DNA of 64,000 nt from Pseudochrobactrum kiredjianiae (lineage in GTDB: Bacteria > Pseudomonadota > Alphaproteobacteria > Rhizobiales > Rhizobiaceae), in assembly GCF_030362795.1 (NCBI RefSeq), contig NZ_JAUCBM010000005.1, forward strand, positions 62,001 through 126,000, read 5' to 3'. Positions within the stretch are counted from its first letter, which is position 1; each line of letters opens with the position of its first letter. Below the pieces are notes generated by a model, which saw only the letters and a list, made by a program, of their open reading frames with translations, was not told the origin of the DNA and ran no database searches. This document shows, piece after piece, positions 30,304 to 45,625 of this stretch. The translations under genes were made by a program, and so were the position numbers.

Positions 30304-31707
30304 TTATTGCTGTTCTTCCAACCAGACTTTGAAGTCACTTAAAGCACGCGCACTCAGTGCTCGTTTTTTAGCCTGCGTTTTTTCTTTACCACGCAAACGC
30401 ACGCCTTCCTGTTTTGGAACTGTAATTTCCGGAAACAGGCCGAAATTCACATTCATCGGCTGGAATGAGCGTTTACCCGGTTCGTCATTGCTGACGAGGT
30501 GGCCGCCGGTGATGTGATTGAGCAAAGCACCAAAGGCCGAAGTGACCGGAGGCGGAGCCAGCGTTTCACCACGCTGCTGTGCTGCCGCAAAGCGACCGGC
30601 AAGCAGGCCCATTGCCGAGGATTCCACATAGCCTTCACAACCGGTGATCTGACCGGCAAAACGAATCTGTGGTCGTGATTTCAGACGCAGATTGGTATCC
30701 AGCAGTATCGGCGAGTTGAGATAGGTATTGCGATGCAGGCCGCCGAGGCGGGCAAATTCTGCATTTTCCAGACCCGGAATCATACGCAAAATGGCAGTTT
30801 GTTCGCCATATTTCAACTTAGTCTGGAAGCCGACCATATTATAGAGTGTGCCGAGCGCATTATCCTGACGCAACTGCACGACTGCATAGGCCTTAACATC
30901 CGGATTATGGGCGTTGGTCAGCCCCATTGGTTTCATCGGGCCATGGCGCAATGTTTCAGGACCACGCTCTGCCATGACTTCAATCGGCAGGCAGCCGTCA
31001 AAATAAGGTGTCCCTTCCCATTCCTTGAATTCGGTTTTTTCACCGTCAATCAAGGCCTGAATAAAGGCTTCATACTGCTCTTTATCCATCGGGCAATTGA
31101 TATAGTCTTTGCCAGTGCCGCCCGGGCCGACTTTGTCGTAGCGCGACTGGAACCAGCAGACATCCATATTGATACTGTCGAAATGGATAATCGGCGCAAT
31201 CGCATCAAAGAAGGCGAGAGAATCGGCTTCAGTTTCCTGCGCGATTGCCTCCGCCAGTTCTGCGGCCGTAAGCGGCCCCGTGGCAATGATCGTCGTGCCC
31301 CAGTCTTCCGGCGGCAGACCAGCAACCACTTCACGCTGGATAGTGATGAGCGGATGTGCTTCGAGCTTTGCGGTGACTGCATCGGAAAAACCGTCGCGGT
31401 CAACAGCGAGCGCACCGCCTGCCGGAACCTGATTGGCATCGGCGCAAGCCATAATCAGCGAATTGGCCAGACGCATTTCTGCATGCAGCACGCCGACGGC
31501 ATTGGTTTCAGCATCATCCGAACGGAAGGAGTTGGAGCAGACAAGCTCTGCCAGTCCTTGCGTCTTGTGCGCATCTGTGCCGCGCACGGGGCGCATTTCG
31601 TGAATGATGACGGGAATACCGGCGCTGGCAATCTGCCATGCTGCTTCGCTGCCTGCCAAGCCGCCGCCGATAATGTGAACTGGTGAAAAAGATGATGAAC
31701 TGGACAT
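30304..31707 (-). CDS. trmFO: tRNA (uracil-54-C5)-methyltransferase, folate/FAD-dependent
   Basis: TrmFO makes ribothymidine at position 54 of the tRNA T-loop using methylenetetrahydrofolate and FADH2. The 467-residue protein has the FAD-binding motif [18 protein letters not shown] right after the start, the catalytic-region cysteine in [24 protein letters not shown], and the C-terminal [17 protein letters not shown] 31707 fits the family start; the frame is open further upstream but runs up to the terminator of the sRNA array. Confidence 0.94.
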
Positions 31708-31788
31708 GCTTTGTCCAATACCGCTTTTACGGCTCTGCTTCAATTGCCTGAATGTCTGATCACAGGCTTTTGCTATGGCGCGAGACAT

Positions 31789-31833
31789 AAAAAAATAGCT
31801 TCGTCGCAGGAGGGAAGGCGACGAAGCTATTTT
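31789..31833 (-). terminator. Terminator hairpin of the sRNA array
   Basis: The arms AAAATAGCTTCGTCGC (31792-31807) and its exact complement (31818-31833) make a 16-bp stem; on the minus strand a T7 run follows. The 10-nt loop also carries the CCCTCC motif, so the terminator is at the same time the last member of the array. Confidence 0.9.
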
Positions 31834-32040
31834 AGGGAGGGACTGATATGGAGGTATCAGTCAGCGCAGAATGTGAGATTTCAATAGGGAATGAAACCTG
31901 TCAGCGCTTTATGCCTGCTGAAAAACGGGAGGAACGACAGCAGGCAATAAAACATGACCGGTACGGGAGGAGGAATACCGGCCATGAAAGGGGAGGATGT
32001 TGTATCCGTCTGCGCCGGTAATCGGGAGGAAACTCCGGCG
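31789..32040 (-). ncRNA. Tandem CCUCCC-loop hairpin array (CcsR/cuckoo-like sRNAs)
   Basis: Read on the minus strand, directly downstream of the DUF1127 gene, is a series of hairpins whose loops carry CCUCCC-type (anti-Shine-Dalgarno) motifs. In transcript order they are: stem 32040-32013 with loop containing TTTCCTCCCG; CATCCTCCCC near 31998-31989 after a small GGAT/ATCC hairpin; stem 31985-31954 with TTCCTCCTCCCG; stem 31950-31909 with TTCCTCCCG; a weak hairpin near 31890; stem 31862-31841 with CCTCCA followed by CCCTCCC; and the terminal 16-bp stem 31833-31792 with loop CTTCCCTCCT and a run of seven T. CcsR RNAs of Rhodobacter and the cuckoo RNAs of related bacteria have this loop motif and lie next to DUF1127 genes, so these are likely their counterparts, processed from the DUF1127 mRNA. 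Confidence 0.8.
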
Positions 32041-32117
32041 AAGCTATCTTGTAACTCAGCTCACTATCAGTTCCGGCGAATTCCTGAAGCTGACAGTTTT
32101 ACCAAGCGGTCTTTTAA

Positions 32118-32270
32118 TTACATGCCAGCTGTGTTGGACTTGCGGGCAATGTAAGGAATGTCGGAGCGGGAGATGCCAAGATCACCGAGTTCACGGTTGG
32201 ACAAACGGTTCAGTTCGGAAACTGTATCACGGTAACGGCGCCAGTTGTTGAAAGAGCGAATGATGTTCAT
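32118..32270 (-). CDS. DUF1127 small protein (YjiS-like)
   Basis: This 50-residue basic protein (MNIIRSFNNWRRYRDTVSEL to the C terminus) has the DUF1127 core of an Arg-rich amphipathic helix followed by LSNRELGDLGISRSDIPYI. Small DUF1127 proteins are RNA-binding or affect RNA turnover; in Rhodobacter the homologue CcaF1 is co-transcribed with CcsR sRNAs. GAGGG eight bases before ATG 32270 marks the start; the frame stays open to 32393 but without support. The hairpin array follows on the same strand. Confidence 0.85.
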   Translation of the reverse strand: MNIIRSFNNWRRYRDTVSELNRLSNRELGDLGISRSDIPYIARKSNTAGM

Positions 32271-32710
32271 TTTTAAAACCCTCGATTGTGTTTCGTTGTG
32301 TTGTGTAATCTGTTGTCCTGTATATAGCCCGTGGGTTCGGAAATGAGGAGAGACAAGTTTGCATAGCTCCTCTGCGAGCCTTGCAAGCCTCATTTAAACG
32401 ATTTAAATCGCTATTTTGTCGCTATTTGAACATGATTGGCCGGTTGGGAAATTTTCGTTCGTTTAAAAGAATTTGCACGCAATTTTTATGCGGATAAGCA
32501 AAGTTCTTGTCACAAAAACATCACGCATGGGTTGTGTATGGTTTTTGACGTTTCAAGAGCTATGCAGGCGGAACAGGGGTGTGGCTGTGCCGGATGATGA
32601 ATGCGGTATCTGAAACTTGCCCGACAATAGAAAATACAGCTTTTTACACCCGATTATTGAGTGCTTGAAAGCGGTCGGTTTTCGTGTGAACCTCTCTGGC
32701 AGACACGAGA
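32271..32710. other. Divergent intergenic region, DUF1127 gene and membrane-protein gene
   Basis: This 440-bp AT-rich region should contain the promoter of the DUF1127/sRNA operon and that of the rightward gene at 32711. Apart from the possible site listed at 32361-32387 I see no repeat or RNA gene. Confidence 0.4.
32361..32387 (-). promoter_or_regulatory. Possible RpoH-type promoter of the DUF1127/sRNA operon
   Basis: On the minus strand CTTGCA (32387-32382) is followed, with 17 bases between CTTG and CTAT, by CTATGC (32366-32361). This resembles alphaproteobacterial heat-shock sigma-factor sites, the type that drives the Rhodobacter CcsR operon. It lies about 90 bp before the ATG. This is a pattern match only. 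Confidence 0.3.
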
Positions 32711-33151
32711 ATGGCTTGTTTACGGGGGAGGTCAGGTCGCTTGTTGAGTTTGCCTGTACTGATTGGCATGATTGCTGCCGGTATTATCGCCGGTGTGCTG
32801 GCCGTTCATTTTTTGGGCGGCAACAAGCAGAGTGTTTTAAACAGCGATACAGAGGTGATTGCGCGTTTCCGGCAGGATTATCCGGAGAGTTCAATCGGCA
32901 TAATTTATTTTACGCGGGATCACCGCGCAGCTTTTTTTGATTTGCCGCAGCAGGGCACTGGCATTGTCCATGGGGTCGGTGCGAAGTTTCTGACACGTAT
33001 CTTACAGACTGGCGATATTCAGGAAATCCGCAAACAGGACGAAACCAGACTGTTTCTGCGCATGCATGACTTTACATGGCCAGCGGCTACATTTTCTTTC
33101 AAAGATAAAAAGACCCGTGATGTGGTGTGTGACTGGCTGGCAAGAACGTAA
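32711..33151 (+). CDS. Hypothetical membrane-anchored protein
   Basis: I do not recognise this 146-residue protein. After a basic start it has one membrane helix (LPVLIGMIAAGIIAGVLAVHFLGG, about 14-37) and a soluble, probably periplasmic domain of about 105 residues with the stretch DLPQQGTGIVHGVGAKFLTR and a single Cys near the end. It ends 23 bp before the sterol desaturase-family gene, so the two are probably an operon. Confidence 0.65.
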   Translation: MACLRGRSGRLLSLPVLIGMIAAGIIAGVLAVHFLGGNKQSVLNSDTEVIARFRQDYPESSIGIIYFTRDHRAAFFDLPQQGTGIVHGVGAKFLTRILQTGDIQEIRKQDETRLFLRMHDFTWPAATFSFKDKKTRDVVCDWLART

Positions 33152-45166: not shown

Positions 45167-45262
45167 CTCTCGTTTAGAGCGTTTCCCTGACTGATTGAAT
45201 CGATGGCTTTGCAAATCAGTCACTTTCTGATTCAAGCTATCTGCCGATGGAGGTCGGCAGAT

Positions 45263-45625
45263 ATGTCGCGAGCCCTTTCCGTTGATCTTCGCATACGTGT
45301 AGTGGCCGCCGTTAACGGCGGCGCATCGCATCGAGAGGCTGCTGAGCGTTTCGGTGTAAGTGCAGCCAACGTTAGCCGTTGGCGTAACCTTCAACTCCAG
45401 CAGGGAAATGTTCGACCCGGTCCACTGGGCGGCGACCGCAACTCCCACAAGACAGAAGCGCATGCCGATCAGATTATGACCTGGCTCGGCGAACACAAGG
45501 ACGGCACTCTCTTCGAACTTCGCAATGATTTGGCTGCCCAAGGCATCGTAATCAGCAAGTCGGCATTGCATCGCTTTCTTGTCCGGAACGAACAAACGCG
45601 CAAAAAAAGACTGGCCATGCGGTAG
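45263..45625 (+). CDS. IS630 transposase, N-terminal frame (OrfA)
   Basis: This 120-residue frame encodes the DNA-binding part: a helix-turn-helix (NGGASHREAAERFGVSAANV, then SRWRNLQ) that binds the element ends, and a second winged-helix-like region (IVISKSALHRFLVRNEQ). GGAGG precedes ATG 45263. The frame ends shortly after an A7 run (45602-45608), where the reading shifts by -1 into the catalytic frame; the residues after the shift (KKTGHAVEQSRPDV) continue the family sequence. Confidence 0.88.
   Translation: MSRALSVDLRIRVVAAVNGGASHREAAERFGVSAANVSRWRNLQLQQGNVRPGPLGGDRNSHKTEAHADQIMTWLGEHKDGTLFELRNDLAAQGIVISKSALHRFLVRNEQTRKKRLAMR

Follow-up and report, generated by a model that had tools for sequence, protein, structure and literature searches.

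A diverged, remodelled copy of the αr14/NfeR1-CcsR-cuckoo RNAs behind a DUF1127 gene of Pseudochrobactrum kiredjianiae

Described relatives of the array

Small RNAs with an anti-Shine-Dalgarno (aSD) motif in their hairpin loops are known under several names. According to the available text of PMC10746234, αr14 RNAs consist of three hairpins that differ in their stems and carry CCUCCUCCC in an unpaired region each, and NfeR1, which is activated by LsrB, silences ntrB by pairing at the translation initiation region via its aSD motifs. CcsR1-4 are processed from the 3' untranslated region (UTR) of a DUF1127 mRNA, and both RNase E and CcaF1, the DUF1127 protein, take part in their maturation (available parts of PMC10253847 and PMC8625941). 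As early as 2011, hairpins with aSD loops and variable stems were described as one family with several copies per genome, in which RS0680a has two stem loops (PMC3927594, as far as section 2.7 covers it). Here we analyzed a window, that is, a whole stretch of 64,000 nucleotides of the P. kiredjianiae genome. On its minus strand, at 32043-31792 between a DUF1127 gene and a trmFO-like gene, it harbours an array of five hairpins with CCTCC in the loop. This array is a diverged, remodelled copy of the αr14/NfeR1-CcsR-cuckoo RNAs.

Like αr14/NfeR1, the array exposes aSD loops on stems of differing sequence, and a VtlR/LsrB-like box with one mismatch at the locus is reminiscent of the LsrB activation of NfeR1. 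Unlike αr14, it comprises five aSD hairpins plus two others, sits behind a DUF1127 gene and remains below the family cut-off. With CcsR1-4 of Rhodobacter sphaeroides, which derive from the 3' UTR of ccaF1, it shares the tandem aSD hairpins behind DUF1127 and the terminator at the end, cotranscription being presumed here; its first aSD hairpin starts at 32043, behind the DUF1127 end at 32118, as is the case for CcsR and CIN1. RS0680a is presumably a CcsR-type RNA as well. In contrast to CcsR, for which the available text of PMC10253847 gives an RpoHI/RpoHII promoter, the window locus has a VtlR/LsrB-like box, RpoH sites not having been searched systematically. Hairpin modules of varying number, aSD loops and variable stems are also the hallmark of the cuckoo RNAs and of SmelA075-SmelA099 (PMC3927594, available part), and of the CIN1 loci, yet the window loops have drifted, and two of the five are not conserved within the genus.

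Structure and conservation of the hairpin array

The original prediction of at least five minus-strand hairpins with TCCTCCC-type loops held, since five were located and CCTCC is present in every loop. TCCTCCC itself occurs in three of them, namely HP1 (32010-32043, loop AGTTTCCTCCCGATTA), HP2 (31953-31986, TCCTCCTCCC) and HP3 (31912-31946, TCGTTCCTCCCGTTTTT), and looser variants occur in HP4 (31841-31862, CCTCCA) and HP5 (31792-31833, CTTCCCTCCT). The full CCTCCTCCC is restricted to HP2 among the five loops. HP5 has a stem of 16 base pairs that runs into seven T, four of which pair with the opposite A-run. The last hairpin had been called a terminator; it does have the form of one, and the terminator scan did not list it because its loop of 10 exceeds the permitted 3-8.

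A chance origin of the hairpin array is excluded. Among 2000 dinucleotide shuffles of the 268-nt stretch that contains it, one such hairpin arose in 18 and two in none, and the eight occurrences of CCTCC compare with a shuffle mean of 0.95 and a shuffle maximum of 5. The fold of this stretch reaches -98 kcal/mol (z = -10.6), a value matched by none of 200 shuffles. Outside the array, on both strands of the 64 kb, two hairpins exceed the score threshold applied to it (minus strand, 45263-45238 and 21537-21506), neither of them with CCTCCC. The one at 45238-45263, outside the array, is a perfect hairpin of ten base pairs with the loop CCTCCA. When the presumed full transcript of 531 nt was folded (z = -8.6), mean pair probabilities were 0.95-0.97 for HP2, HP3, HP4 and HP5 and 0.69 for HPv, a long variable hairpin at 31863-31908 on the minus strand.

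To assess conservation, seven genomes of the genus including that of the window were aligned over 347 columns and the window structure was imposed on them. Pairing is retained in 97.8% of 459 cells, compared with 24-46% (maximum 46.1%) after the partners had been slid by 1-3 columns. In six pairs both partners have changed, compared with an average of 2.8 in shuffles, of which 6 of 500 attain this number, and the covariation score was reached by 1 of 500 shuffles; the count of further pair types is not above the shuffles, 484 of 500 reaching it. HP5 carries TCCCTCCT in all seven genomes, with four of its base pairs changed on both sides. The loop motifs of HP2, HP3 and HP5 are likewise kept in 7/7 genomes, the HP2 loop being identical throughout and HP3 showing CCTCCC everywhere and the full CCTCCTCCC in the genome designated G003. 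HP1, which is less stable in longer folds than the other four, has CCTCC in 4/7 genomes, and HP4 in 3/7, with C-runs in the other four and eight invariant stem pairs. The original prediction had named a lack of loop conservation in relatives as an argument against its proposal, and the outcome is divided accordingly between the three motifs kept and the two lost in part. It had also stated that stems diverge and loops stay the same; this applies when the hairpins of the array are compared with each other, and to HP2 and HP5 between species, and fails for HP1 and HP4. The notion that the loop is what is selected is therefore only partly right, because two loop motifs have disappeared from some genomes while the stems stayed.

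The two hairpins of the array that lack an aSD motif in the window are HPv, whose shortened forms in genomes G004 and G006 contain CCTCC, and HP0 (32063-32097, minus strand), which is located just 3' of the DUF1127 stop codon and is paired in 94.6% of cells over the seven genomes. Two linkers on the minus strand resemble the loops: CCTCCCC at 31990-31996, whose first two C are paired in a weak 4-bp hairpin of the minimum free energy (MFE) structure of the 268-nt fold, and CCTCCC at 31835-31840 between HP4 and HP5, which is unpaired in the MFE structure.

Family membership and genomic place

A scan of the whole window against Rfam at gathering scores returned one tRNA and no other match. In a permissive scan of 801 bases, RF02344 (ar14) ranked top with two matches (32.5 and 31.8 bits, E 3.7e-4 and 5.2e-4), and the copies of this locus in the same genus score at most 42.0 bits. 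The window genome (G000) itself contains two canonical copies over the cut-off, at C1:558903-559018 and C2:310951-311072, and a further weak match at C3:134677-134789 (24.6 bits). Besides the DUF1127 gene of the window, this genome yielded one more, and the C2 copy follows it directly; no DUF1127 was found around the C1 copy, a stand-alone array of three hairpins (L010 1501-1616). In both canonical copies all three aSD loops are unchanged in 7/7 genomes and the stems vary, compensatory changes included. The ar14 search of 21 genomes gave a match at E <= 0.1 in 16 and over the cut-off in 12, whereas 14 control genomes yielded one match, in Thermus composti, below the cut-off.

The place of the array in the genome links it to bona fide members. 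For the best 80 of 590 trmFO relatives in named genomes, up to 2.5 kb of upstream sequence (shorter at contig ends) were inspected, and at least two CCTCCC-loop hairpins were found in 46 of the 80 loci, compared with 0/80 for the reverse complement and 3/80 for the reversed sequence. Over these loci, 169 of the 217 CCTCCC-loop hairpins, a few of them strays outside arrays, carry CCTCCTCCC. In 21 of the 46 array loci the array starts within 450 nt of the DUF1127 start, and in one no DUF1127 is in view. Among 20 of the 80 loci that were sent to Rfam, hand-picked mostly for their arrays, 18 contain ar14 over the cut-off, Brucella and Phyllobacterium included; L063, from the genus of the window, and L099 do not. 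The latter, from Aurantimonas, has 12 tandem aSD-loop hairpins upstream of trmFO (about 1630-2390).

A comparison with Brucella had been suggested along with the original prediction. In the two species compared, Brucella rhizosphaerae (L064, 85.1 bits) and Brucella endophytica (L065, 100.9 bits), the array follows DUF1127, has the canonical form and lies upstream of trmFO, at most about 0.35 kb from the trmFO match. In the Phyllobacterium loci L066, L067 and L069 (110-115 bits) a canonical array follows DUF1127 and precedes trmFO by about 1.9 kb, and L068, likewise with the array behind DUF1127, has ar14 matches of 83.6 and 61.2 bits about 1.1 kb upstream of the trmFO match. The window array has this place too, following DUF1127 and preceding trmFO as the bona fide αr14 arrays do. 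Given the canonical arrays upstream of trmFO in Brucella and Phyllobacterium, the site is therefore an old one, at which the genus of the window has a remodelled array. The kinship with CcsR and cuckoo RNAs that had been proposed on first reading is supported by the DUF1127 position, the aSD loops and the terminator-like last hairpin, and further by the ar14 matches, the arrays of sister genera and the two canonical copies in the genome.

The DUF1127 gene (32118-32270, minus strand) comprises 50 codons and matches Pfam PF06568 (1.2e-16); its product is 100% identical in the six other genomes of the genus searched. The gene is this frame of 50 codons at 32270-32118 and not a 91-codon open reading frame (ORF). 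On the other side of the array, the gene at 30304-31788 matches Pfam GIDA and is trmFO-like. In a list that may omit very near genomes, it shares 84-85% identity with both Brucella species that appear there and 96% with the metagenome-assembled genome of L063.

Proposed function and its alternatives

We consider it likely that the window array represents the 3' UTR of the DUF1127 mRNA after processing, an RNA of the αr14/NfeR1-CcsR-cuckoo type that would silence mRNAs via Shine-Dalgarno pairing. The hairpins, their loop motif, conservation, covariation, synteny and the canonical copies in the same genome were all directly observed. Judging from the relatives, a regulator of the VtlR/LsrB type would probably activate one transcript that includes the DUF1127 frame and the hairpins and ends at HP5; VtlR is taken here to be the orthologue of LsrB of Sinorhizobium meliloti, as the available text of PMC7486931 implies. 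An endonuclease such as RNase E may then cut this transcript into stable hairpin RNAs, whose unpaired loops, UCCUCCC or UCCCUCC, would anneal to the purine-rich Shine-Dalgarno sequences of several mRNAs and thereby block translation. Since three aSD loops are kept and two are being lost or changed, the array is probably still active, with a target set that is narrower than, or shifted from, that of the two canonical copies. The aSD loops resemble the anti-Shine-Dalgarno sequence of 16S rRNA as generally known; a search of this draft assembly did not recover the 16S tail GGATCACCTCCTTTCT itself.

The VtlR box, GCAT-N3-TG-N3-T, has been confirmed for B. abortus according to the available part of PMC7486931, where it is also suggested for A. 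tumefaciens, and DUF1127 genes are named among the VtlR targets in B. melitensis (PMC12595884). At the window locus, a box-like site (GCATAGCTCCTCT) with one mismatch is located at 32361-32373 on the plus strand, opposite to the operon. Such a one-mismatch box is near chance when taken alone, and its weight comes from its conservation and from the alignment with the promoter of the second DUF1127 gene, which has an exact box in 4/7 genomes, that of the window among them. In 7/7 genomes an exact box also precedes the stand-alone canonical array, its start lying 62 nt ahead of the first hairpin. A survey of 148 distinct 220-nt stretches upstream of DUF1127 genes (loci L001-L142, after removal of hits with less than 220 nt upstream and of stretches whose last 120 nt duplicated another) revealed the exact box in 74, which are not independent events because many of the genomes are close relatives. 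The backwards and the complement pattern were found in 3 stretches each, permuted patterns in 3.5 on average (maximum 24) and the box itself in 3.1% of shuffled stretches; 72 of the 76 occurrences sit 81-140 nt before the inferred start codon. At the Agrobacterium tumefaciens trmFO locus (L085), two DUF1127 genes each have an exact VtlR-type box, and no CCTCCC-loop hairpin was present by the criterion used.

A probable -10 element, CTATAT (32322-32327, minus strand), lies within GGGCTATATACAGG (32330-32317), which is identical in the seven genus copies and is common to the second DUF1127 promoter. A consensus scan of 31700-32500 detected no sigma-70 pair, and the pattern of box, spacer and CTATAT, searched in the window genome in one box orientation only, had 3 matches versus 1 in the control, none of them at arrays. 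An attenuator based on an upstream open reading frame (uORF) in the DUF1127 leader, with the loops pairing to its GAGGAG, was considered; for S. meliloti duf1127-1 such a uORF attenuator is described in the available text of PMC12218461. This candidate was dropped: the conserved GAGGAG-CT-ATG block is more likely an operator than a leader, because it lies upstream of the probable -10 element and aligns with the second DUF1127 promoter. The conserved promoter block also contains a palindrome, CGATTTAAATCG, at 32399-32410, in which one of the seven genus copies differs by one base. At 32551-32565 on the minus strand, near a divergent ORF at 32711, GCATAGCTCTTGAAA resembles the beginning of a VtlR-type box and is the same in 5/7 genus copies and one base off in two.

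Counts of sites 4-10 nt before ATG amounted to 52 for GGGAGGA (control 7), 45 for CGGAGGA (4), 40 for TGGAGGA (10) and 36 for AGGAGGA (8); the count for AAGGAGG was 36 (control 19). A special excess of GGGAGGA, as expected for a target set tuned to the loops, was not seen relative to the three other NGGAGGA words. Thirty of the 52 GGGAGGA-ATG sites were taken as loci, 24 of which begin a reading frame of 60 codons or more, and ten of these were scanned with NCBIfam: three resemble transporter parts, below curated cut-offs, and three had no family at 1e-20. Another of the ten, at L158 316-1503, is the gene of a formaldehyde dehydrogenase of the glutathione-independent kind (TIGR02819, over the cut-off); its start codon is preceded by GGGAGGA, which complements UCCUCCC exactly. 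The formaldehyde dehydrogenase and transporter candidates recall the C1 and ABC-transporter targets of CcsR and NfeR1, the CcsR RNAs of R. sphaeroides acting on C1 metabolism according to the available text of PMC10253847; ten candidates picked from 52 prove nothing.

Several of our results weigh against silencing by a transcribed and processed array of this family. HP1 is outside the MFE structure of the 531-nt fold, where its probability is 0.42 (0.86 in the 268-nt fold), and the loops of HP1 and HP4 are not conserved, CCTCC having been lost in 3/7 and 4/7 genomes, respectively. As to family membership, both window ar14 matches are well below the gathering score of 58.8 bits, and the full CCUCCUCCC occurs in one of the five window loops (HP2), whereas αr14 RNAs have three hairpins with an identical CCUCCUCCC each. 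In 24 of the 46 trmFO array loci the DUF1127 gene is found only downstream of the array start. The box of the window operon, located at the same position in 7/7 genus copies, has one mismatch, and among the 148 DUF1127 promoters the box is present in 38 of the 77 that are followed within 900 nt by a CCTCCC hairpin and in 36 of the 71 that are not; being equally common in either case, box and array are therefore not tied together. Finally, GGGAGGA is not clearly commoner than CGGAGGA, TGGAGGA or AGGAGGA, and therefore no target set stands out.

The loss of loop motifs could also mean that the array is a decaying paralogue under relaxed selection, given the two canonical copies, in which only the terminator and the mRNA-protecting hairpins still matter. 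The unchanged loops of the canonical copies, as opposed to those of HP1 and HP4, are in line with such a decay, which we nevertheless regard as unlikely in view of the HP2 loop and the HP3 and HP5 motifs retained by all seven genomes and of the compensatory pairs in HP5. Moreover, mean column identity amounts to 90.4% for the five aSD stems and 77.5% for their loops, compared with 59.8% for columns that belong neither to any stem nor to these loops. Somewhat less probable still is that the C-rich loops are landing sites for a protein or RNase, such as a DUF1127/CcaF1-like protein or RNase E, that govern decay and maturation of the DUF1127 mRNA itself, aSD pairing being incidental. While the constant stem of HP4, whose loop turns into a C-run, would suit a landing site, the stand-alone C1 copy keeps the same loops without a DUF1127 gene, and S. 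meliloti NfeR1 lowers an ntrB reporter but its mutant variant NfeR1abc does not (PMC10746234, available text). That the array is nothing else than a strong multi-hairpin 3' end, a terminator with stabilising hairpins and no regulatory role, is very improbable: HP5 has the form of an intrinsic terminator and 3' hairpins would slow 3'-5' decay, but one loop word recurs in unrelated stems, and 46/80 trmFO loci have such hairpins on the trmFO strand versus 0/80 on the other.

Loops, stems, DUF1127 linkage, mechanism and the LsrB activation of NfeR1 are already in print, and in this respect the silencing array proposed here adds one member to a system of published mechanism. As far as can be told, the remodelled copy in a genus of the Brucellaceae is new, and a paper treating both VtlR and CcsR was not found in the literature searched, which did not extend to the original description of the cuckoo RNAs, where these loci may be covered. 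Papers that bring together at least two of LsrB, CcsR, the cuckoo RNAs, SmelA075 and RSs0680a do exist, the one on NfeR1 among them. The locus shows that a covariance-model cut-off misses a copy with clear synteny, and through it the VtlR/LsrB box is connected to both DUF1127 promoters and aSD arrays. Here a known aSD RNA module is caught while evolving, one of three copies having extra hairpins and drifting loops and the other two being unchanged in their loops over the genus, and a drifting copy beside two constant ones allows one to ask which loop words serve which targets. Tentatively, we hypothesize that in Brucellaceae and their neighbours the small DUF1127 genes activated by VtlR/LsrB might be two-in-one transcripts that specify a small protein and an aSD hairpin RNA, and that one of the three VtlR/LsrB-linked arrays of the genus is being re-tooled, its loops changing from CCUCCUCCC to UCCUCCC, UCCCUCCU and C-runs. 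If this is true, the re-tooled array would point to a different set of Shine-Dalgarno sequences, and effects credited to the DUF1127 proteins of the VtlR regulon, for instance on sugar use, may therefore partly stem from the RNA.
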